Below are positions 25,930 through 43,832 of a stretch of 64,000 bases of DNA, one piece after another; positions within the stretch are counted from its first letter, which is position 1, and each line of letters opens with the position of its first letter. This DNA is from Actinoallomurus purpureus. GTDB lineage: Bacteria > Actinomycetota > Actinomycetes > Streptosporangiales > Streptosporangiaceae. Under the pieces are notes generated by a model, which saw nothing but the letters and a program-made list of their open reading frames with translations, made no database searches and was not told the DNA's origin. A program made the position numbers and the translations under genes. The stretch is from assembly GCF_024055795.1 (NCBI RefSeq), contig NZ_JAMXMY010000003.1:1-64000 (forward strand). Direction: 5' to 3'.

Positions 25930-26070
25930 CGAAGGTCCGGTGGCCGGAGTGCCGATGTCGCACGCGATCTCCTTCACTCGGGGGGAGGTGAACACCCCCT
26001 ACGTGTCGAGAACACGGCGAGTGTTACCGACGAATCGCCTTATGTCTGGGCGGGCACGTTCCCGCGGAAC

Positions 26071-26104
26071 GCCGATCTTGTTCGGACTTACTTCGCATTT
26101 TCGG
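26071..26104 (-). repeat. 34-bp left-end motif, copy C
   Basis: This matches 31 of 34 bases of 34443-34476 in the complete Tn7-like element and also resembles 41162-41195 in the mini-element. It contains an inverted TnsB-type site (GTTCGGACTTAC). It is the only clear trace of a transposon end on this side. Confidence 0.7.
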
Positions 26105-26866: not shown

Positions 26867-27019
26867 CCCAGCTCGTCGAAGGCTGCGACGCGGACGCCTG
26901 ACGCATCGCTGGCATCAGACTCAACCAGGCGGTTCATGGAGCCGGTGGCTCTAGAAGTACTGATGGCCCGCAGACCAGATGCCGTGCATCACGCCTGATT
27001 CACTTCGGTGGTCAGAGCC
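26867..27019. repeat. 153-bp dispersed repeat, copy 1
   Basis: Matches 34211-34363 base for base except for five substitutions and no gaps. It contains no complete gene: on the plus strand it carries the last codons of an unknown frame (QLVEGCDADA then TGA), and the sequence on both sides of the two copies is unrelated. Confidence 0.9.
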
Positions 27020-28861: not shown

Positions 28862-28957
28862 TAGTCGGAACCTGGCACCGCGACTGGAAACCTAAGTCCG
28901 GAATCGGAAAGACTCCCATCTAGGTCCGGAACCTGCCAGGTTGGCGCGGATGGGACT
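28862..28957 (+). repeat. Degenerate right-end-like repeats
   Basis: AACCTAAGTCCGGAA (28889-28903) is identical to part of the complete element's right end (41037-41051). TAGGTCCGGAA and a CAGGTTGGCGCGGATGGGAC stretch follow and resemble the TnsB-type sites and tip of that end. Spacing is uneven and the terminal ACA is changed to ACT. Confidence 0.5.
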
Positions 28958-33665: not shown

Positions 33666-33991
33666 CTTCCGCCCTCCTTGAGCTTGTCGATCCGTGATGT
33701 GATGTACTCCCATTTAGCCCAGAACGTTGCGAGTTCTTCGCGCCCCGCGTCGTTGAGCGCATAGAACTTGCGCGGCGGGCCCAGCCCGGACGGTCGTTTC
33801 GTCACCTGGACGAGCCCGTTCTTCTCCAGCCGCAGCAGGATGGTGTACACCGTCCCCTCGACGACGTCGGCGAAGCCGAGTTCGTTCAGCCGACGCGTGA
33901 TGGCGTACCCGTAGGTCTCCTCGCTGCCGATGATTTCAAGCACGCAGCCCTCAAGCGTGCCCTTCAGCATCTCCGTCAGGTCGTCCATCAT
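33662..33991 (-). CDS. PadR family transcriptional regulator
   Basis: A 109-residue PadR-type winged-helix repressor: LKGTLEGCVLEIIGSEETYGYAITRRLNELG, VVEGTVYTILLRLEKNGLVQV, and RKFYALNDAGREELATFWAKW. Such proteins repress their own multidrug-exporter operon and are released by substrate. ATG 33991 follows GAGG by 5 bases; ATG 33988 is equivalent. AT-rich direct repeats of AGTACT (around 34009-34031) precede it and may be its operator, which would control the whole five-gene unit. Confidence 0.9.
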   Translation of the reverse strand: MMDDLTEMLKGTLEGCVLEIIGSEETYGYAITRRLNELGFADVVEGTVYTILLRLEKNGLVQVTKRPSGLGPPRKFYALNDAGREELATFWAKWEYITSRIDKLKEGGR

Positions 33992-34210
33992 GGGTCCTCT
34001 TCGGTCTCTCAGTACTTTGTAGTACTGAGTACTACTATAAAGTACCACAGAGTAGTGAATCAATGCCTAGCGAGCGGCGAGCGCAGACCACGGAAGCGAT
34101 TCGAATCATCGGCCCGCGACTGGATGCTCGACATCACCCCCTGGCCCGGCGACGTCGACTCCTTCGTTGACGCCATGGTCTGGCTGGTCAGCGCCATACC
34201 CCTTGGCGCC

Positions 34211-34363
34211 CCCAGCTCGTCGAAGGCTGCGACGCGGACGCCTGACGCATCGCTGGCATCAGACTCGACCAGGCGGTTCATGGAGCCGGTTGCTCTGGAA
34301 GTACTGATGGCCCGCAGGCCAGATGCCGTGCCTCACGCCTGATTCACTTCGGTGGTCAGAGCC
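34211..34363. repeat. 153-bp dispersed repeat, copy 2
   Basis: Nearly identical to 26867-27019 (5 substitutions in 153, no gaps). Its last base is the first base of the CAACC target duplication, so the Tn7-like element begins immediately after it. No gene is seen between the PadR gene and this copy. Confidence 0.9.
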
Positions 34364-34367
34364 AACC
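34363..34367. repeat. Left 5-bp target-site duplication (CAACC)
   Basis: CAACC directly precedes the TGT tip at 34368. The same five bases directly follow the ACA tip at 41078-41082. Confidence 0.85.
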
Positions 34368-34476
34368 TGTCCGTTCCGCGCCAAGGTGGCGAGTGGTCGG
34401 CGCGCTGAGCAGCCGCTCGCAGGGTAGGTCCGAACAGCGACCGCCGATCTTGTTCAGACTTACCTTGCATTTTCGG
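34368..34476 (+). repeat. Left end with TnsB-type sites
   Basis: Holds the TGTCC tip, a forward site (34417-34435, TCGCAGGGTAGGTCCGAAC) and an inverted site (34452-34469) 16 bases further on. The 109 bases align without gaps to the start of the mini-element (41087-41195). Confidence 0.8.
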
Positions 34477-34544
34477 TGAGGACGGTCCGCTGACACCGGT
34501 GGCGGGAGCGTCTGAAGCGTGCGGTCCCGTCCCGGTCCGCACCG

Positions 34545-35423
34545 TCAAGGTGTCATCAGGCCGGCCGGAGGATCAGGCTCGGCCTGCTTGCGGGAGAGGG
34601 ACAATCGGCGGCGTTCGCGATCCAGGCCGATGATGGTCACCTTGATGCGGTCACCGACGTGAACGACCTGGTCGGGGGTTTCGACCGGGATAGGGGCGAG
34701 TTCGTCCAGGTGCACCAGGCCCTCAACGCCGTCCACGACGCTGACGAAGGCTCCGAACGGGACGAGCTTGGTCACCGTTCCGCAGAACGCTTGTCCCTCG
34801 CGAGCCGTGTCGGCGAACTCCTGGAAGGGGTCGGGTTCACGTGCGCGAAGGGAGAGCCTGGCTTCGCCGTTCGTGGTGTCGAAGCCGAGGACGGAACAGA
34901 TGACCCGTTGCCCTACCTCGACGACTTCGGAGACCTTCTCGAGGTGCCGCCAGGACAGCTCGGGGATCGTGATGAAACCTACTCCTGGATAGACCGGATG
35001 TGGTGGCCCATCGTCCAGCGCCACGAACACGCCGAACGGCTGCACGTCCGCCACCACACCGCTGAGCACCTCGTCAGGGCGGAGTGCTTTCAAGAACGCC
35101 CAGAGCTCGGGATTCTCGGTCGCGGCCAGGGACAGGCCGATCGTTGCCTGCTCTCGATCGACAGCGATTACTTCAGCGGTGACGCGCTGGCCGACCTGGA
35201 CGGCCTCATCCGACCGGCGGGTCCAAGAGGCGTCCAGAGGCCCGATGTCCGCCGGTATCAGGCTCAGGTGCCCGTCGAGTCTCACCGCAGCCCCGCGAGG
35301 ACGTCTTACCTCAGTGACCGTCCCGGAGATGACGTCGCCGACCCGCACGGTCTTCAAGATCTCGACTACAGCTTGATCCTCCGTCGGCCCATCCATGCTG
35401 TCCACTTTCTCATGGCCGCTCAC
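34545..35423 (-). CDS. Cargo: protein with three S1 RNA-binding-like domains
   Basis: A 292-residue protein made of three S1-type OB folds at roughly 25-100, 112-195 and 205-285. Each has the S1 pattern (VGDVISGTVTEVRRPRGAAV; LSGVVADVQPFGVFVAL; FCGTVTKLVPFGAFVSVVDG followed by VEGLVHLDEL), ending in the R-R-R-L-S-L-S typical of S1 repeats. It has no ribosome-binding N-terminal part of ribosomal S1. Function is unknown; RNA binding is likely from the family. It lies between the left end and the unknown cargo gene, on the same strand as the transposition genes. Confidence 0.82.
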   Translation of the reverse strand: MSGHEKVDSMDGPTEDQAVVEILKTVRVGDVISGTVTEVRRPRGAAVRLDGHLSLIPADIGPLDASWTRRSDEAVQVGQRVTAEVIAVDREQATIGLSLAATENPELWAFLKALRPDEVLSGVVADVQPFGVFVALDDGPPHPVYPGVGFITIPELSWRHLEKVSEVVEVGQRVICSVLGFDTTNGEARLSLRAREPDPFQEFADTAREGQAFCGTVTKLVPFGAFVSVVDGVEGLVHLDELAPIPVETPDQVVHVGDRIKVTIIGLDRERRRLSLSRKQAEPDPPAGLMTP

Positions 35424-35500
35424 TTGCGCGATCGGCGATCAGTGCTGTGCACATTTCTCAATCCTTCCCTACTGCGGGTAGTCCGGGCCCTCAGTGATCC

Positions 35501-35920
35501 TCACCTGGGCGGGCGCATCTCGCGGGAAGTGCCAGAGCTGACGGTCGTCTCGTTGAGCTCGACAGAGGAGAACGGATTGGAGTGTTGGGAGATCGCGAGC
35601 CACTCCAAGGTCTCCTCGCCGAGTCGAATCAGCGCTACCCAGCCGATACTTCCGTGGGCGGCTGACTCGCCTGCGAGGGCCCGGATTCCGTCCTGAGTGC
35701 ACGAGGCCAAGGTGATATCGACGTCGAGCCAGTTGGTCGGTGTCCACTGCTTTGCCCGCACGACTTCCGACCATTCCCACCGTATGGGGTCGGCGAACTC
35801 GTGGAATTCCATTACGGACAGAGTGCCGTCGCCGAAAAGTATGAGGTCACCGTCCGGTGCCTCCCGGGCGCGCCAGCGAGCCTGCACGTCCTCGACCGTA
35901 ACAGCCTGGTTGTTTGCCAT
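35501..35920 (-). CDS. Cargo: hypothetical protein, 139 aa
   Basis: A soluble acidic protein beginning MANNQAVTVEDVQARWRARE. It has several Trp (RWEWSEVV, QWTPTNWLDVD, IGWVALI, LEWLAIS) and a possible beta-rich core. No membrane segment or known motif. It follows tniQ by 65 bases on the same strand. Its place inside the transposon makes it cargo; an accessory role in the host or in target choice is possible but not shown. Confidence 0.6.
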   Translation of the reverse strand: MANNQAVTVEDVQARWRAREAPDGDLILFGDGTLSVMEFHEFADPIRWEWSEVVRAKQWTPTNWLDVDITLASCTQDGIRALAGESAAHGSIGWVALIRLGEETLEWLAISQHSNPFSSVELNETTVSSGTSREMRPPR

Positions 35921-35985
35921 TCGTCCCTCACGTCATGGTCACGGTTCTGCCACCACAATGCGAGGGGCAGGAAACCTGTTGGGAC

Positions 35986-37086
35986 TCAGTTTGCCGTTTC
36001 GGCGAGTCGGGCGCGTTGGCGGGCGTAGGGGCCAGGTTGGGGGTAGTAGGTCTCGATGACGGGTGCGTTGGTGTGGTGGTGGTAGATCAGAGTGTTGGCG
36101 GCGTAGCGGTTCTTTGCGAAGTAGCGGGCTGCCTGGTGGTGTTTGCGCAGCGTCCGGGTCGAGGGCGCGGGTGGCGTGCCGTCGGTGTTCTTCAGGCGCC
36201 GTTCGGGGAACGTGGTGGGGGTCATGTGGGGCTGGGCGGCGTGGTGGTCGGCCCATAGGTGGAGCGGGTGTTTTTGGTCTTCGGGGTAGTACTCGCGCAG
36301 GCCGAGGCGCAGGCCGAATTGTTCGCAGAGCTCCCAGCGGTCGTCGGTGTCCGGGTCGCCGAACGGGGCGGTGGCTTTGGCCCGCCAGGTGGGGGAGGCC
36401 AGGAGTCCGGCGATGGTGACGGCTTCGGGGTAGATGGCGGCGTAGCAGCCTGAGTGGCTGAACATCTTCTGGGAGTCGGTCTTGGGGATGATGCGGTCGA
36501 GGCGCTGGTCCCAGTGCCACCAGCGGCTGTCGCCGTAGGTCTCTTCGGGGCCGTTCTTCCAGAGCACGGCGCAGATCTTGAAAGCGTGGATGAGCGCGTC
36601 GAAGACTGGGATCGGACCATAAGCGCGCACCAGCCGGTGGTGCTTGCGTTGCGCGCTGAGGATCTCCGGAAGGTCGGCGAGGTGCCGGAGGCTGTGGTCT
36701 TGGCCGACGTCGGGTGGACCGAGCCAGTAGCCGTGACGTCGGCAGGCGTACTCGTGGTGGGCGAACAGCCGCATGACGTGCCCGCCGCCGTGCCGGGCGG
36801 TGCAGCGCGAGCAGGCGAATTGCGGGGTGTCACGCAGGAGCAGCCAGTCGGTGTCGGGGTTCAGTTCGGGCAGGGCCTTGGCCAGGTGGTCCAGCGCGTA
36901 GCCGGTGGCCTCGGCGAGCCGCTGGCCGCAGAGCACTCTGGCTTTGGCGCCGGCATCGCCCGGGACGCTGACCCAGGTCCACATTTCCTGGTAGATGACG
37001 TCGTGGACGGTGGCGAGCCGAAGCAGGTAGGACTTCACCGTCTCGTTCGCGGCGGGCGGGATCGGGATCGGCAGTCGGCGCAGCAT
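35986..37086 (-). CDS. tniQ: TniQ-family target-selection protein
   Basis: A 366-residue TniQ protein (TnsD-like group). The start MLRRLPIPIPPAANETVKSYLLRLA is the TniQ N-terminus. A zinc-binding region follows with CSRCTARHGGGH and YACRRHGYWLG (C-x-x-C then C-x-x-H). The rest is helical, DNA-binding-like. In Tn7 relatives such proteins recognise the insertion site and recruit TnsC. ATG 37086 overlaps the tnsC stop as TGATG; GTG 37089 is an alternative. Its length is between short TniQ and full TnsD proteins. Confidence 0.88.
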   Translation of the reverse strand: MLRRLPIPIPPAANETVKSYLLRLATVHDVIYQEMWTWVSVPGDAGAKARVLCGQRLAEATGYALDHLAKALPELNPDTDWLLLRDTPQFACSRCTARHGGGHVMRLFAHHEYACRRHGYWLGPPDVGQDHSLRHLADLPEILSAQRKHHRLVRAYGPIPVFDALIHAFKICAVLWKNGPEETYGDSRWWHWDQRLDRIIPKTDSQKMFSHSGCYAAIYPEAVTIAGLLASPTWRAKATAPFGDPDTDDRWELCEQFGLRLGLREYYPEDQKHPLHLWADHHAAQPHMTPTTFPERRLKNTDGTPPAPSTRTLRKHHQAARYFAKNRYAANTLIYHHHTNAPVIETYYPQPGPYARQRARLAETAN

Positions 37087-38171
37087 CACACGACCTCCGC
37101 TGATGCGGGCTGGTCACCGTGGCGGCGCCGGGAGGTTGAGGCGGTGTAGGTGGTCTGTGCGGCGTAGTCGACGGGGACGAGGTCGAGGTGTTCCCGGGTG
37201 ATCTTTTCGGCGCCGTCTTCGATGGCCAGGATCGCCGCTCCGCGGATGAGCTGGGACAGGCTGCCGATCATTCCGCCGCTGCGCCGGTAGAGGTATTCGG
37301 CGAGACCCGCCAGAGTCCCAGGCGCGTGGTGCTGCAGGCGCAGGGTGGTCTCCAAGGTGGCGATGAGGGAGTGCCAGGCGTCGCGTTGTTCGCTGGTGCC
37401 GTAGGCGAATGCGGTCGTCGGGACGACGGTGAACCGTCCGGCGATCTGGCGGCCGCGGGCTCCGGCGAACAGCCCTTGGGCTTCGACCTCGACGCCGGCG
37501 TAGATGAACGTGGCGGGCAGTCGTTCGGCGAAGTACTTCAGCTGGTCGGAGACCTCGGCGCCGGTGCGGGTGGCCAGGCTGATGTTGTGGATCTCATCGA
37601 CTAGGACGAGGTCGACATGGGTGTGGGCCGCGACGGAGCAGACGGCGTTGGTGATGTCGGTCAGGTTGTAGCGGCTGGTGAACTCCAGTCCGAGGAAGCG
37701 GGCGAACTCCACTGCGAGCATCCGGGAGGTCGCCGCAGGCGGGACGGTGACGTAGATGACCGGCAGCCGAGTCTTGTCATCGGGGTGGCGTTTGCGGATG
37801 GCCAGTTCGTGGGCGCGGCCGAGTTGGGTCAGCGCGGTGGTCTTGCCGGTCCCGGATGCGCCGCTGATGATCGCGCCGCGGCGGGCGGAGATCTGCCGCC
37901 GGTTGAGCTGGACCAGCAGGCGTCCGGTGGAGATCACTCGGTGGATCGTCGGGGTGTTCACCAGCGGCAGGTCGGAGTGATAGTCCCGCCGCATCTCGTC
38001 GTAGGCGCTCCGGCGGCGAGGCGAAAGAGCGACTAACTCGTCAGCCGTGAGCAGCATTGGCGGCTCGGGAGCGTGACGGACGAACGCACCCCACCCTTCT
38101 TTGGTGGTGAGGGGATTGTCGGGCGGGACCTCGTCATTGGGCGTGGTCGCGGTGTGAGGGGCGCTGGTCAT
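37086..38171 (-). CDS. tnsC: TnsC/TniB-family AAA+ ATPase
   Basis: A 361-residue AAA+ regulator that links target recognition to the transposase. Walker A GASGTGKTT lies around residue 106, Walker B LVLVDEIHN around 190, a sensor-like region in ATFIYAGVEVE around 224, and an arginine-rich RGRQIAGRF afterwards. ATG 38171 overlaps the tnsB stop (ATGA); GTG 38177 is an alternative two codons earlier. The C-terminal tail is basic (STSRRRHGDQ), a usual site for contact with the transposase. Confidence 0.92.
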   Translation of the reverse strand: MTSAPHTATTPNDEVPPDNPLTTKEGWGAFVRHAPEPPMLLTADELVALSPRRRSAYDEMRRDYHSDLPLVNTPTIHRVISTGRLLVQLNRRQISARRGAIISGASGTGKTTALTQLGRAHELAIRKRHPDDKTRLPVIYVTVPPAATSRMLAVEFARFLGLEFTSRYNLTDITNAVCSVAAHTHVDLVLVDEIHNISLATRTGAEVSDQLKYFAERLPATFIYAGVEVEAQGLFAGARGRQIAGRFTVVPTTAFAYGTSEQRDAWHSLIATLETTLRLQHHAPGTLAGLAEYLYRRSGGMIGSLSQLIRGAAILAIEDGAEKITREHLDLVPVDYAAQTTYTASTSRRRHGDQPASAEVV

Positions 38172-40210
38172 ATCCACTTCTCGGCTTCGGCGTGGGCATC
38201 GAAGATCCCGAACGGGATCACGGCTGCGGTCGGTGGCGGCGCGTCGGCGTCGGGTTCGGTGTCCTCGGCCGGCCGCGGCCGGTGGGCGGCGGCTGCGACC
38301 TTGGTTCGGGCTGCGATGCGCTTGCTGCGTCGCGTGGCCGAGCGGTCGGTCGGCCCTTCCTGAGCCCGCGTCAGCAGGTTGTCCAGGACACGAGCGACGT
38401 CGGTCTCGTTGGTGTCATCCAGCCCTTTGTCGGCGGCCAGACGGCGGGCGTGCCGCCAGGTGAAGTCGGCGAACGGAGCCGAGACCATCGGCAGGTGCGT
38501 CCAGGGGACGGTGATCCATCCGGTGCGGGTGCGTACGAACACCTGGGACAAGTCATACGGGTCGTAGTGGACCTCCCACAGTCCCTTCTTGGCAGTGACG
38601 CCCGAGTGCTGCCGCCGCCAGGGGCCGAGGTCGACGTGGTCGTAGGTGCGGTAGTCGATCCGGATGCCGTAGTCATTGATCGCCCGCCAGGCCACCGGCA
38701 ACAACTCCAGATAGTCCTCACCGGTCAGAGTGAGCGGCAGGTAGCCGGCAGCGGCCACGAGCGAGGCGTACTTGTCGTTCGGCGACATCGCCCGGCGAGG
38801 GAAGTACGGGTCACGCAGGCTGTCGTGCGGGCGAGGCTGCCACCCGGCGATCAGCCACTCATCCAGCAGGTCCTGCAACTCCGGGATCGTCCAGACGGCC
38901 TCATCGTCGACGCGCTCGCCACGGCGGCTGGTGTTCGACCCGGTGTAGGCGGCCACGTGCTGGCAGAACAGCGTGTTGATCGACCCGAACGTCGCCTCGA
39001 CGATCGCCTTGTCGGTCGGCGTATTCGGGCGGGCCTTCTGGACCGAGATCCCCAGGCGTTCGCAGGCACGGGTGAAGGTCTCGGAGATGAACACCCGTCC
39101 GCCGTCGATGACGATGGTGTCCGGCACGATCACCGGCTTGGCCGCCGCCAGCTCCATCCGGGTGTCGATGTCGACCAGACGGGCGTGTGGCAGCCGGGAC
39201 GCCGACATCCGCAACGCCGTCGACCAGCCGGGTCGCATCGGCTCGGGCACCAGCATCTTGGCCACCAACAGGGACGCGTCCACCGCCTTGGTCCCCACCG
39301 GGCGCAGCACTGCGGCGCAGATCGTGCGTGTCGCGACATCGACCGCGATGGTCAGATCCGCGCGGTCAGCCAGGCCGGAGTCCAGCAGCACCATCACGTC
39401 CAGCGGGGTGGAGTCGATCTGCACCTGCTCGCCAGGCCGGGCTGCGAACGTCGGCGTGAACGGCCCGTCCGGCCGGTTCGCCGTCTGCCGACGCGTGACC
39501 GCCGACTCGAAGCTGTGGCGTCCCGTCGAGAGCACCTCGATCAGCCGGTAGAAGGTGGTCTTGCCAGGCAGCGGCACCGCTCCGGGCCCGTAGGCGTCCT
39601 CCAGCGATTTCGTCACCCGCCGGATCAACCGCGACCGTGTCCCCGTCGACGCGTTCGTCTCGGCGTCCAAGGCCTCGCGGATCGCGGTCACCACCCGGGC
39701 ATCCGCCCGTCCGGTCGCCTCCCAATCCCGGATGACTCGCTGGTCCACCAATCCCCACAGACCCTGCGCGGCGTAGCGAGCGCGACGGCTCTGGATCGTG
39801 CGGACGCTGACGCCCAGTTCCTCAGCCTTGGCTTGGTCGCGCTGGGCGAGAGTGCTTGTCGCCGGGTCGTACTTCGCCTGCGGGACCGCTCCGGGCGCCG
39901 CATCCGGGGGCAAGCCACTGGTGACCTCAACGACGTGTCGCTCCCATTCCCTGGCTGCCGCGAGAACCTCGGCCGGGAGACTGTCGAGCAGGCCGAACGG
40001 CTCCACTTGCGGAAGTGGCTCGCCGTCGATTAAGGCGAAGCCCGGTGCGCCCATCAGATGCGAGGCCAGCACCACCGACTCACCGCCTGCGGCCGATCGC
40101 AGCCGTACCGACATCCCGGCCAGACCAACCACCTGGTGTTCGCCGCCGTCGAATTGGACCCAATCGCCCGGACGCAGCACCGGCCGTGAGACGCTGCGCT
40201 CGCCCGTCAT
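38168..40210 (-). CDS. tnsB: TnsB-family DDE transposase
   Basis: A 680-residue Mu/TnsB-type integrase that binds the end repeats and makes the 3' strand cuts and joins. An N-terminal beta region and helix-turn-helix (LAQRDQAKAEELGVSVRTIQSRRARYAAQGLWGL) precede the RNase-H-fold core with Asp in VQIDSTPLDVM, Asp in DTIVIDGGRVF and Glu in TDKAIVEATFGS. A C-terminal beta-barrel and a basic tail follow. ATG 40210 overlaps the tnsA stop (ATGA). The DDE residues are all kept, so it looks active. Confidence 0.94.
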   Translation of the reverse strand: MTGERSVSRPVLRPGDWVQFDGGEHQVVGLAGMSVRLRSAAGGESVVLASHLMGAPGFALIDGEPLPQVEPFGLLDSLPAEVLAAAREWERHVVEVTSGLPPDAAPGAVPQAKYDPATSTLAQRDQAKAEELGVSVRTIQSRRARYAAQGLWGLVDQRVIRDWEATGRADARVVTAIREALDAETNASTGTRSRLIRRVTKSLEDAYGPGAVPLPGKTTFYRLIEVLSTGRHSFESAVTRRQTANRPDGPFTPTFAARPGEQVQIDSTPLDVMVLLDSGLADRADLTIAVDVATRTICAAVLRPVGTKAVDASLLVAKMLVPEPMRPGWSTALRMSASRLPHARLVDIDTRMELAAAKPVIVPDTIVIDGGRVFISETFTRACERLGISVQKARPNTPTDKAIVEATFGSINTLFCQHVAAYTGSNTSRRGERVDDEAVWTIPELQDLLDEWLIAGWQPRPHDSLRDPYFPRRAMSPNDKYASLVAAAGYLPLTLTGEDYLELLPVAWRAINDYGIRIDYRTYDHVDLGPWRRQHSGVTAKKGLWEVHYDPYDLSQVFVRTRTGWITVPWTHLPMVSAPFADFTWRHARRLAADKGLDDTNETDVARVLDNLLTRAQEGPTDRSATRRSKRIAARTKVAAAAHRPRPAEDTEPDADAPPPTAAVIPFGIFDAHAEAEKWI

Positions 40211-40968
40211 GTGAGCGGGGTCCGCGACACGATGGCCGCCTGGTGCAGCGGCACCGAAAGGTCCACGACCAACTCCTGCCGCCAAAGCAGGTGGAACAGC
40301 ACCGGCAACACCGCGATCGGATCGCCCACGGCCTCTGCACCGGCCAGCAGTCCGCGCGGTGAGTGGAAGGCGTCCCCCAACGCCGTAGCGATCTCAGGAA
40401 GCGAATGACGCGGGTGCCGGTAGCCCCCCAGCCACCGCACATTCGCCGTCACGATCGAATCCGGGGCGCCCACCAGCCGGTACTCCCACCCCACCAGTCC
40501 GCACGCCTTCCTGGTGGCCTCGAACGCCGCCAGGTCGCGCGGCTTACGTCGTTCAGCAGGACGGCAGTCGACGACCACTCCGGATCCATCCGCCTTCCGC
40601 GCGAAGTAATCCGGCGCATGCGACCGGCCCTTCCGCCGATCCTCCGTCGACCAGAACAACCAGAACGGCTGGGAAGCGATCCCGATGATCGCGGGATCGA
40701 AGTCGAGCAACATCAGGTGATCGCGTTCCAGCCACGACTCGTACCCGACATGTCCTTCCTCCGTGGCCGTCCACCACCGACCCGGGAAGTGCCGCTGCCC
40801 CTTGTAGGAGGCGAAGCTCCGCGCGGGCGGCGCGGACTCCAGCCGCACGCTCCACGCATCCGTCAGCGGAACCCGCACCTGCGCTCCGTCCGGCGTCAGG
40901 TACCCGATCTCGAAGCCATCGGCCGGCGGATCAACCCCATCGCCGATCACCATGCGTAAGCCCTTCAT
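40207..40968 (-). CDS. tnsA: TnsA-like endonuclease subunit
   Basis: A 253-residue TnsA-like protein, which would cut the 5' strands at the transposon ends so that the element moves by cut-and-paste. The restriction-fold core is visible: Glu in GYESWLERDHL, a QPFWLFW strand, Asp in SHAPDYFARK and VVDCRPAER, where the usual V-D-V-K Lys appears as Arg. The C-terminal half is helical, as in TnsA. ATG 40968 starts the operon, 109 bases inside the right end. Confidence 0.86.
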   Translation of the reverse strand: MKGLRMVIGDGVDPPADGFEIGYLTPDGAQVRVPLTDAWSVRLESAPPARSFASYKGQRHFPGRWWTATEEGHVGYESWLERDHLMLLDFDPAIIGIASQPFWLFWSTEDRRKGRSHAPDYFARKADGSGVVVDCRPAERRKPRDLAAFEATRKACGLVGWEYRLVGAPDSIVTANVRWLGGYRHPRHSLPEIATALGDAFHSPRGLLAGAEAVGDPIAVLPVLFHLLWRQELVVDLSVPLHQAAIVSRTPLT

Positions 40969-41000
40969 GACCGAGGATTCTTCACGACCCGGCCGCCGCC

Positions 41001-41077
41001 TCGCAGGGTTAATCCGAACTTCGCAAGATCACTCGCAACCTAAGTCCGGAACTCGCAAGGTTCGCCCGGACAGGACA
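41001..41077 (+). repeat. Right end with three TnsB-type sites
   Basis: Three units of the type TCGCAnGGTnnGTCCGGAC lie at about 41001-41019, 41033-41051 and 41053-41072, ending in GGACA. The whole 77 bp recurs at 41267-41343 with six substitutions. Confidence 0.85.
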
Positions 41078-41082
41078 CAACC
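41078..41082. repeat. Right 5-bp target-site duplication (CAACC)
   Basis: Matches 34363-34367 exactly. Its last C is also the first base of the CCCGG duplication of the neighbouring mini-element. Confidence 0.85.
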
Positions 41083-41086
41083 CCGG

Positions 41087-41343
41087 TGTCCGTTCCGGCC
41101 GAACCCTGCCAGCGGTCAGCGCGCCGAGCTGCGGGTTGAAAAGTAGGTCCGGACAGTGACCGCCGATCTTGTTCGGACCTACCTTGCGAATTCGGTGGAG
41201 AGGGACTGCCGACCGGCGTTGCTGGGGTGCTGCGAACGGTCGGTTCGTCCCGCGATGCCCGACCGTTCGCAGGGTTGGTCCGGACTTCGCAAGATCGCTC
41301 GCAAGGTAAGTCCGGAACTCGCAAGGTTCGCCCGGACAGGACA
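41087..41343. mobile_element. 257-bp gene-less derivative of the Tn7-like element
   Basis: Starts TGTCCGTTCCG and ends CGGACAGGACA like the complete element, and is flanked by CCCGG on both sides (41082-41086 and 41344-41348). Its left 109 bases align to the left end and its last 77 bases to the right end of the 6.7-kb element. It contains no gene, so it must have been moved by a transposase supplied elsewhere, as MITEs are. Confidence 0.92.
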
Positions 41344-41398
41344 CCCGGCGATCGCTGTGGGCGAACGGGCGATCGGAAATTTATCGGGACTCTTCTTT

Positions 41399-41419
41399 CT
41401 TGAGTGTGGGTGACTCAAG
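41399..41419 (+). promoter_or_regulatory. HAIR element (HspR-binding site) of lon
   Basis: CTTGAGT-N7-ACTCAAG is a perfect match to the HAIR consensus bound by the heat-shock repressor HspR. It lies 13 bases before the lon start codon. In Streptomyces HspR represses lon along with dnaK and clpB. Confidence 0.9.
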
Positions 41420-41432
41420 CTTTGGAGGCCTG

Positions 41433-43832
41433 ATGAGCAAGATCGTCACCCTGCCGGTGCTGCCGCTCGACGACGAGGTCGTGCTGCCGGCGATGGTCGT
41501 GCCGCTCGACCTGTCGGAGAGCGACGTGCGGGCGGCGATCGACGCCGCGCGTGCGACCGCCGTCTCCCAGGGGCCGGGCATCCGGTCGGAGGACAAGCCG
41601 CGGGTGCTGCTGGTGCCCCGGCTGAACGGGAAGTACGCGGCCGTCGGCACCCTCGCCGTCGTCGAGCAGGTGGGCACGCTGCCCGGCGGCGGGCCGGGCG
41701 CCGTCGTCCGCGGCGTGGCCCGCGTGCGCATCGGTTCCGGGACGACCGGTCCGGGCGCGGCCCTGTGGGTCGAGGGGACCGAGGTCGAGGACGCCGGTCT
41801 CGGACCGCGGGCCGACGAACTGGCCAAGGAGTACAAGGCGCTGGTCGTCGGGGTGCTGGAGAAGCGCGGCGCCTGGCAGGTCGTCGACATGGTCCAGCAG
41901 ATCGAGGACCCGTCGGTGATGGCCGACCGGGCGGGCTACGCGTCCTACCTCAGCGCCGACCAGAAGGTACGCATCCTGGAGACCGCCGACGTCACCGAGC
42001 GGCTGGAGCTCGCGATCGGCTGGACCCGGGAGCACCTCGCGGAGCTGGACGTCGCCGAGACGATCCGCAAGGACGTCGAGGAGGGCGTGGAGAAGCAGCA
42101 GAAGGAGTTCCTGCTCCGCCAGCAGCTCGCCGCGATCCGCAAGGAGCTGAACGAGCTCAACGGCGACCCGTCCTCCGAAGAGGAGGACTACCGGGCCCGC
42201 GTCGAGGCGGCCGACCTGCCGGAGAAGGTCCGCGAGGCGGCCCTGAAGGAGGTCGACAAGCTCGAGCGGACGTCCGACCAGTCGCCGGAGGGCGGCTGGA
42301 TCCGCACCTGGCTGGACACGGTCCTGGACATCCCCTGGAACGACCGGACCGAGGACGCCTACGACATCGCCGGCGCCCGGGAGATCCTCGACGAGGACCA
42401 CACGGGACTCGACGACGTCAAGGAGCGGATCGTGGAGTACCTCGCCGTGCGCAAGCGGCGGGAGGACCGGGGCCTCGGCGTGATCGGCGGCCGGCGGTCC
42501 GGCGCCGTCCTCGCGCTCGTCGGCCCGCCCGGCGTCGGCAAAACGTCCTTGGGCGAGTCGGTGGCGCGGGCGATGGGCCGTGAGTTCGTCCGCGTGGCGC
42601 TCGGCGGCGTCCGCGACGAGGCCGAGATCCGGGGTCACCGGCGCACGTACGTCGGCGCGCTGCCCGGCCGTATCGTCCGGGCGATCCGCGAGGCCGGCAC
42701 GATGAACCCGGTCGTGCTGCTCGACGAGATCGACAAGGTCGGCGCGGACTACCGCGGCGACCCGACGGCGGCGCTGCTGGAGGTGCTGGACCCGGCGCAG
42801 AACCACACGTTCCGGGACCACTACCTCGAGGTCGAGCTCGACCTGTCCGACGTCGTGTTCCTCGCGACGGCCAACGCGCTCGAGACCATCCCCGGCCCGC
42901 TGCTGGACCGCATGGAGCTCGTCTCCCTCGACGGCTACACCGAGGACGAGAAGGTCGCCATCGCGCGCGACCACCTGCTGCGGCGTCAGCTCGACAAGGC
43001 GGGCCTGACCGCCGACGAGGTGACGATCGACGACGGCGCGCTACGGCTGCTGGCGGCCGAGTACACCCGCGAGGCGGGCGTACGGAGCCTGGAGCGGGCG
43101 ATCGCCCGGGTGCTGCGCAAGGTCGCGGCGAAGGTCGCGCTGGAGCAGACGACGCTTCCGCTGACGGTCGGCGCCGACGACCTGCGCGACTACCTCGGCC
43201 GTCCGCGCTTCACGCCGGAGACGTCGCTGAACGAGTCCGAGCGGCGTACGGCGGTGCCGGGCGTGGCGACCGGGCTCGCGGTGACCGGGGCCGGCGGCGA
43301 CGTGCTCTACATCGAGGCGTCCCTGGCGGACAAGGAGACCGGTGACACCGGCGTGACCCTGACCGGCCAGCTCGGCGACGTCATGAAGGAGTCGGCGCGG
43401 ATCGCGCTGTCCTACCTGCGCTCGCGCGGCGCGGAGCTGGAACTGCCGGTCGGTGACCTGAAGGACCGTGGCGTGCACGTCCACGTGCCGGCCGGCGCCG
43501 TGCCCAAGGACGGGCCCAGCGCGGGCGTCACGATGACCACGGCGCTCGCGTCGCTGCTGTCCGGGCGGCTGGTCCGCACGGACGTCGCGATGACCGGTGA
43601 GGTGTCGCTGACCGGGCGGGTCCTGCCCATCGGCGGCGTCAAGCAGAAGCTGCTGGCCGCGCACCGGGCGGGGATCACCACGGTGATCATCCCGAAGCGC
43701 AACGAGCCGGACCTGGACGACGTGCCGGCCGAGGTCCTGGAGCAGCTGACCGTCCACCCGGTCAGCGACGTCCGGGACGTCCTCGACCTGGCACTGGAGC
43801 CGGCGACGACGCGGGACGTCGTCGCCGCCTGA
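41433..43832 (+). CDS. lon: ATP-dependent protease Lon
   Basis: A 799-residue Lon protease of the bacterial LonA type, which degrades misfolded and regulatory proteins in the cytosol. The N-terminal substrate-binding domain begins LPVLPLDDEVVLPAMVVP. The AAA+ core has Walker A GPPGVGKTS (around 370) and Walker B VVLLDEIDKV. The protease domain has the catalytic Ser in KDGPSAGVTM and Lys in GGVKQKLLAAHRAG. ATG 41433 follows TGGAGG by about 4 bases. An HspR site overlaps the promoter. Two transposon insertions end 84 bases upstream of the coding sequence. A strong terminator follows. Confidence 0.97.
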   Translation: MSKIVTLPVLPLDDEVVLPAMVVPLDLSESDVRAAIDAARATAVSQGPGIRSEDKPRVLLVPRLNGKYAAVGTLAVVEQVGTLPGGGPGAVVRGVARVRIGSGTTGPGAALWVEGTEVEDAGLGPRADELAKEYKALVVGVLEKRGAWQVVDMVQQIEDPSVMADRAGYASYLSADQKVRILETADVTERLELAIGWTREHLAELDVAETIRKDVEEGVEKQQKEFLLRQQLAAIRKELNELNGDPSSEEEDYRARVEAADLPEKVREAALKEVDKLERTSDQSPEGGWIRTWLDTVLDIPWNDRTEDAYDIAGAREILDEDHTGLDDVKERIVEYLAVRKRREDRGLGVIGGRRSGAVLALVGPPGVGKTSLGESVARAMGREFVRVALGGVRDEAEIRGHRRTYVGALPGRIVRAIREAGTMNPVVLLDEIDKVGADYRGDPTAALLEVLDPAQNHTFRDHYLEVELDLSDVVFLATANALETIPGPLLDRMELVSLDGYTEDEKVAIARDHLLRRQLDKAGLTADEVTIDDGALRLLAAEYTREAGVRSLERAIARVLRKVAAKVALEQTTLPLTVGADDLRDYLGRPRFTPETSLNESERRTAVPGVATGLAVTGAGGDVLYIEASLADKETGDTGVTLTGQLGDVMKESARIALSYLRSRGAELELPVGDLKDRGVHVHVPAGAVPKDGPSAGVTMTTALASLLSGRLVRTDVAMTGEVSLTGRVLPIGGVKQKLLAAHRAGITTVIIPKRNEPDLDDVPAEVLEQLTVHPVSDVRDVLDLALEPATTRDVVAA

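Follow-up and report, generated by a model that had tools for sequence, protein, structure and literature searches.

What determines where a Tn7-like transposon settles on an actinobacterial chromosome, and why do two such elements stand side by side in front of one gene in Actinoallomurus purpureus? The locus lies in a stretch of 64,000 nucleotides, here called the window (positions 1 to 64,000 of the forward strand of contig NZ_JAMXMY010000003.1, assembly GCF_024055795.1). The window holds a full Tn7-like transposon (the big element) and, on its lon side, a gene-less element of 257 bp (the mini-element), each with its own 5-bp target duplication. The gene to the right of the target site is lon, encoding the stress protease endopeptidase La (41433-43832, plus strand; TIGR00763, E 2.9e-247). 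Elements of the same clade adjoin the lon promoter upstream, in one orientation, with the tnsA end towards lon. We regard it as highly probable that an actinobacterial Tn7-like clade uses this locus as its chromosomal attachment site. In this reading, TniQ would direct insertion to the lon promoter, and gene-less copies would be moved in trans.

The big element (34368-41077, 6,710 bp) runs from a TGTCC tip to a GGACA tip between two copies of CAACC (34363-34367 and 41078-41082). Its left end (34368-34494, plus strand) starts with TGTCCGTTCCGC, and its right end (40978-41077, plus strand) carries repeated TnsB-type sites and ends with CCGGACAGGACA. A preliminary description of this DNA had placed the element from TGTCC at 34368 to GGACA at 41077, flanked by CAACC, and these boundaries proved right to the base. 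The intact-looking Tn7-like transposon that it announced is borne out by the tips, the 5-bp duplication and the four tns/tniQ genes, and its suggestion that the element is young enough to move is plausible. The chance of a 5-bp match beside tips fixed beforehand is about 1 in 1,000. Relatives were collected by scanning named genomes with TnsB; of 154 relatives, the best 80 were used and yielded 79 loci. Tips of the TGTCC/TGTCT...GGACA type with a matching 5-mer were found in 19 of these 79 loci by a simple exact search run without a shuffled control. The preliminary description had overlooked the mini-element, the lon target and the repeated use of the site, and it did not mention two genes other than tns genes.

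The lon promoter contains two conserved sites. Rightwards from the mini-element, the order is a ClgR-operator-like palindrome, GATCGCTGTGGGCGAAC (41350-41366, plus strand), then a HAIR (HspR-type) inverted repeat, CTTGAGT-N7-ACTCAAG (41399-41419, plus strand), and then the lon start codon at 41433. The palindrome is the sole exact match in the genome to GATCGCTNNNNGCGAAC. Bellier and Mazodier are said, going by a title of 2004, to have described a role of ClgR at lon in Streptomyces. The palindrome fits the ClgR operator core CGC-N5-GCG (PMC3613350) and differs at two positions from the ClgR consensus TNCGCT-N3-GGCGNAA (PMC9004370). The inverted repeat follows the HspR consensus of PMC2687793, where HspR is reported to bind the lon promoter in S. 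coelicolor.

Among the 79 TnsB loci, lon lies directly next to the tnsA end in nine, always in the same orientation as in the window. These loci belong to Actinomadura (L039, L060), Streptomyces (L042, L044-L047, L108) and Streptantibioticus (L043). The distance from the tip to the palindrome is 9-11 bp, and that from the tip to the HAIR core 59-61 bp, in all nine. In the window, taking out the mini-element puts the big element at 10 bp from the palindrome; the mini-element itself is at 6 bp. A site at a fixed distance and in a fixed orientation was thus found in nine of nine lon loci and for the big element of the window. Random insertion is ruled out by the fixed offset and orientation. The lon start codon is ruled out as the ruler, since its distance varies while the distances to the palindrome and HAIR are constant. 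The neighbourhood of lon is also occupied in L134 (G120), by a Tn7-like element of another kind (TnsB 58%) whose tip is apparently TGTCA; judged by eye, it is some 26 bp away from the palindrome.

A TnsB tree was built from 77 of 80 rows; L059, L094 and L108 were left out for their short frames, L108 being one of the loci at lon. The nine lon rows of the tree, window included, fall in one group of 13 rows (support 96). No lon was found in the remaining 64 rows, nine of which have fewer than 262 bases before tnsA and could not show it. The lon label changes four times on the tree, and none of 500 shuffles was as clustered. Four of the 13 clade rows lie away from lon (L040, L041, L050 and L062), and L040 and L041 adjoin TrwC relaxase genes. 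This suggests that conjugative plasmids or integrative and conjugative elements may be a second kind of target for the clade, as in the two pathways of Tn7. TniQ sequence does not cleanly track the target. The TniQ of the window is 74% and 71% identical to those of the lon loci L039 and L060 and 60% identical to that of L041, which is not at lon. Streptomyces-type TniQ is 34-35% identical to that of the window, and both types occur at lon. In addition, the TniQ of L040, away from lon, is 75-80% identical to those of L042, L044 and L046.

The mini-element (41087-41343, plus strand) was spotted when the big element was searched against its own genome and both of its ends recurred just to its right. 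It lies 9 bp from the big element, runs from TGTCC to GGACA, and carries both family ends and no tns gene. Its left end is 76% identical to that of the big element over 127 bp, and its right end 92% over 77 bp. The sequence CCCGG flanks it at 41082-41086 and 41344-41348, base 41082 being shared with the right duplication of the big element. Two perfect and differing 5-bp duplications, CAACC and CCCGG, stand side by side, which argues for two separate insertion events. No further full-length copy of the mini-element was found in the genome, and a search against plasmids gave no match. A predicted RNA fold of the mini-element (z -5) was set aside, since inverted ends fold by construction.

The site has also been used repeatedly in other genomes. 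Significant traces are present left of lon in four of the seven other genomes of the same genus: G005 and G006 retain right-end sequence, G003 has part of tnsB together with parts of the ends, and G002 has parts of tnsA and of tnsC. A weak match to the right end (E 0.09) occurs at the correct offset in G004, and nothing significant was found left of lon in G007 and G001. The preliminary description had expected an empty site reading AGAGCCAACCCCGG with one CAACC in close relatives. This sequence was found in none of the seven lon regions; L121 contains 10 bases of it, once, at a place other than the junction. A strict junction pattern is present in two of three genomes of another genus of the wider family, namely G057, whose locus resembles L060, and G096. 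The order in G096 is an older right end (GGGACA), ATCGA, an element of 2,407 bp (TGTCC...GGGACA), ATCGAGGTT and the palindrome. From this tandem layout it follows that exactly the same five bases were hit a second time, on the lon side of the resident. No tns match was found inside the 2,407-bp element, whose genes resemble an FMN reductase, a MarR regulator and, by eye, a disrupted short-chain dehydrogenase.

In the Streptomyces-like genus of G216, the junction pattern is found in six of 392 genomes, all six at lon, and in none of the control. About one or two matches would be expected by chance, an estimate for a free 5-mer at five offsets. Pieces of tns genes accompany the pattern in L216, L217 and L219, L217 being the genome of L047. 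End repeats were seen by eye in L218, and neither kind of trace in L215 and L220, which may be chance matches. A looser, class-wide pattern matched 11 of 394 genomes and, in the control, three; its matches other than the window are, taken as a whole, read as chance. The relic tips in L118 and L119 were picked by eye.

How would such a site be recognized? The insertions leave the operator, the promoter and lon intact, and at the insertion point itself the loci show no conserved bases. Across 16 lon sites grouped as occupied or relic, the conserved columns are the palindrome, a GG.AA block, a CTC block and HAIR. Target choice by Tn7 depends on the TnsD site at +23 to +58 alone, and not on the bases at the insertion point (PMC2918618). 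By analogy, the stretch read here would begin near the right edge of the palindrome and reach as far as HAIR. In the proposed mechanism, TniQ, acting like TnsD, would bind this conserved part of the lon promoter. Bound TniQ would recruit TnsC, which in turn would place the TnsAB transpososome at a set distance. An element already in place would be no block to the next insertion, so that newcomers would stack on the lon side, and gene-less copies would be mobilized in trans by TnsABC-TniQ. The big element would have arrived before the mini-element, an order suggested by the spacing and by the tandem in a relative. We infer both the activity of the system and the bases that it recognizes.

The lon promoters differ in one further respect. 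Ten of them (L169, L170, L174, L175, L177, L178, L180 and L183-L185) have 4 bp extra between the palindrome and HAIR, mostly with TTAC-N4-TTAC before the palindrome, and all ten are classed as unoccupied. The shorter spacing is seen in all 17 sites grouped as occupied or relic, in a comparison in which 23 of 25 unoccupied promoters could be parsed and a wrong palindrome was picked up in the L124 row (spacing 67); the contrast may reflect phylogeny only.

The history of the two elements in the window can be read in other ways. Instead of a mobile miniature, the mini-element may be the remnant of a full element that inserted on the lon side and later lost its interior. We hold this to be quite possible, if somewhat short of an even chance. 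The mini-element is single-copy in the genome, and its ends are 92% and 76% identical to those of the big element, so that descent from the big element is not required. However, these ends and the duplication are perfect, and in G096 the same site is occupied by a further element that lacks tns genes and has a perfect duplication. The order of arrival could also be reversed, with the big element inserting later beside a resident mini-element. Both duplications are perfect, and relative age therefore cannot be read from them. Yet the big element has the family spacing to the palindrome, 10 bp, only when the mini-element is removed; with it kept, the distance is 272 bp. The newcomer in G096 likewise sits on the lon side, and we consider the reversed order improbable.

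As for targeting, host ClgR or HspR bound at the lon operator could serve as the beacon, with TniQ or TnsC docking on the regulator and not on DNA. The constant spacing to the ClgR-like palindrome (9-11 bp) and to HAIR (about 60 bp) would fit this, as would the use of one site by quite different TniQ sequences. We nevertheless judge it very unlikely, since TnsD of Tn7 reads DNA itself, and ClgR also acts at clpP1P2 and clpC (PMC3613350), where no locus was noticed, although no search by gene name was made. Still less credible, in our assessment, is a loose specificity in which lon is a permissive hotspot and the loci cluster there because a small number of old insertions were inherited. It draws on the 64 of 77 tree rows that lie outside the clade without lon, on the four of 13 clade rows found elsewhere, and on the fact that near relatives could have one insertion in common. 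Junction bases and exact offsets vary between loci, however, so most insertions look separate, and the window and G096 each have two stacked insertions that fall on the same few bases. Direct reading of the lon promoter by TniQ remains the reading that we prefer. A bolder form of it would make this the first Tn7-like lineage to home on a transcription-factor operator: the selector would read the ClgR/HspR-controlled lon promoter or the bound regulator, and the site would be a stacking dock for transposase-less elements moved in trans. This form we think unlikely as a whole. If true, where, and perhaps when, transposition takes place would be tied to the protein-quality stress circuit of the host.

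The gene content of the big element agrees with that of a Tn7-like transposon. As the preliminary description stated, tnsA, tnsB, tnsC and tniQ are present with overlapping starts; they form a single minus-strand run, beyond which two cargo genes, also on the minus strand, lie towards the left end. TnsA (40207-40968, 253 aa) is a putative TnsA-like endonuclease subunit matching NCBIfam NF033179 TnsA_like_Actin (E 8.5e-94), while Pfam Tn7_TnsA-like_N scores below the Pfam cut-off (8.4e-4). TnsB (38168-40210, 680 aa) is a DDE transposase, matching Pfam Mu-transpos_C (6.3e-5) and TnsB of Tn6677 (9y7b, E 9.9e-10). TnsC (37086-38177, 363 aa) is a TniB-like AAA+ ATPase (Pfam TniB, 6e-16; VchTnsC 7rzy, E 9.7e-9). 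TniQ (35986-37089, 367 aa), the presumed target selector, matches Pfam TniQ below the Pfam cut-off (E 4e-4). Family membership is strongly supported for TnsA and moderately for TnsC; for TnsB and TniQ the evidence is weaker, though consistent. The predicted structure of TniQ has a pLDDT of 81; a Foldseek search with this model gave no row at E <= 0.001, and the best rows of a second look were TniQ/TnsD chains, weakly matched. The TniQ profile had no match among PDB sequences.

The DDE, Walker and zinc residues, described earlier as intact, are indeed so and are kept across relatives. The TnsB triad D266, D369 and E405, assigned by eye, is present in 77 of 77 rows. In TnsC, K112 of Walker A is kept in 69 of 70 rows and D194/E195 in all 70, and the TniQ zinc ligands C93/C96/C116/H119 are found in 68 of 68. 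TnsA keeps E77, D120, D134 and R136 in 75 of 75 rows, the arginine standing where a solved TnsA has lysine by a weak alignment (E 0.016). The D134-x-R136 pair is invariant where that protein has E-x-K, which would be a change of the catalytic lysine to arginine across the group. The cargo genes encode a protein with three S1 RNA-binding domains (34545-35423, 292 aa) and one without a match in Pfam, NCBIfam or PADLOC (35501-35920, 139 aa). PADLOC gave no match for these two or for a 221-aa protein, and an Rfam scan of 33900-41600 was also without a match. By Pfam and NCBIfam, the six genes of the element are tnsABC, tniQ and these two, and none is a cas gene. The big element is a Tn7-like transposon of the TnsABC+TniQ type without CRISPR parts.

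Several known systems resemble it. It shares with Tn7, which uses TnsABC and TnsD at attTn7 beside glmS, the TnsA, TnsB, TnsC and TniQ/TnsD proteins, TGT...ACA tips, repeated end sites, a 5-bp duplication of unconserved sequence, and a position next to a conserved housekeeping locus that is constant in distance and orientation. However, Tn7 targets the 3' end of a coding gene, whereas the target here is the upstream promoter edge of lon. Furthermore, there is one 367-aa TniQ, the two other genes match no target selector in Pfam or NCBIfam, and TnsA has arginine for lysine. Tn5053/Tn402-type elements (TniABQ) share the TniB-like ATPase and TniQ; they lack tnsA and have a resolvase. Here, in contrast, tnsA is present and no resolvase was matched in Pfam or NCBIfam. 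Tn6022 and the TnsF elements at comM are similar in having TnsABC-TniQ and a dedicated chromosomal site (Faure et al. 2023, PMC10293859). They carry TnsF with an inactive tyrosine-recombinase domain (PMC10293859), which has no match among the six genes here. Benler et al. (2021, PMC8649781) described a TnsB group, Clade 2, that is dominated by Actinobacteria and includes no experimentally characterized member. Judging from that description, the trees not having been joined, the big element very likely belongs to Clade 2. The preliminary description had offered it as a reference element; its ends are exact, but it is one of many in an actinobacterial group (PMC8649781).

The machinery is known, and the type of target is apparently undescribed. 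The words lon, ClgR and Streptomyces are absent from the main text of Benler et al. (PMC8649781). No description of lon as an attachment site was found in the searchable parts of the literature, including PMC8649781, PMC10293859, PMC11406308, PMC12150760 and PMC12669027; supplements and subscription papers were outside this scope. A promoter edge as a landing site would broaden the list of Tn7 target types. With a defined attachment site, exact ends, a natural donor template of 257 bp and roughly 60 bp of conserved target, targeting in an uncharacterized branch becomes directly testable. A site-specific integration system for Streptomyces and its relatives is a possible use.

Other observations concern related elements and the surroundings of the locus. 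In the same genome, a second, distant Tn7-like element (L125, G000:C11, about 750-754 kb; TnsB 52-54%) and a homolog of the S1-domain cargo protein (L126, G000:C39, about 16 kb; 43%) were found. In six of six Micromonosporaceae loci (L049, L051-L055), the start of tnsA coincides with the end of a reading frame for a MobA/VirD2-like relaxase (Pfam PF03432, E 1e-6 to 8e-10). These are perhaps Tn7-like elements with their own mobilization gene in the tns run; no ends were found for them. Within the window, a left-end-like relic (26067-26104, plus strand; 89% over 38 bp, E 3e-9) and a right-end-like relic (28864-28957, plus strand; E 0.003 and 0.010, extent by eye), which has repeated sites and whose tip is decayed, enclose genes for a DsbA-like protein and a short-chain dehydrogenase, perhaps an older, decayed occupant left of lon. 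A direct repeat of 153 bp (96.7%) is present at 26867-27019 and 34211-34363, the second copy ending at the first base of the left duplication of the big element. The 7.3 kb between the copies may represent either a duplication or an island of greater age.
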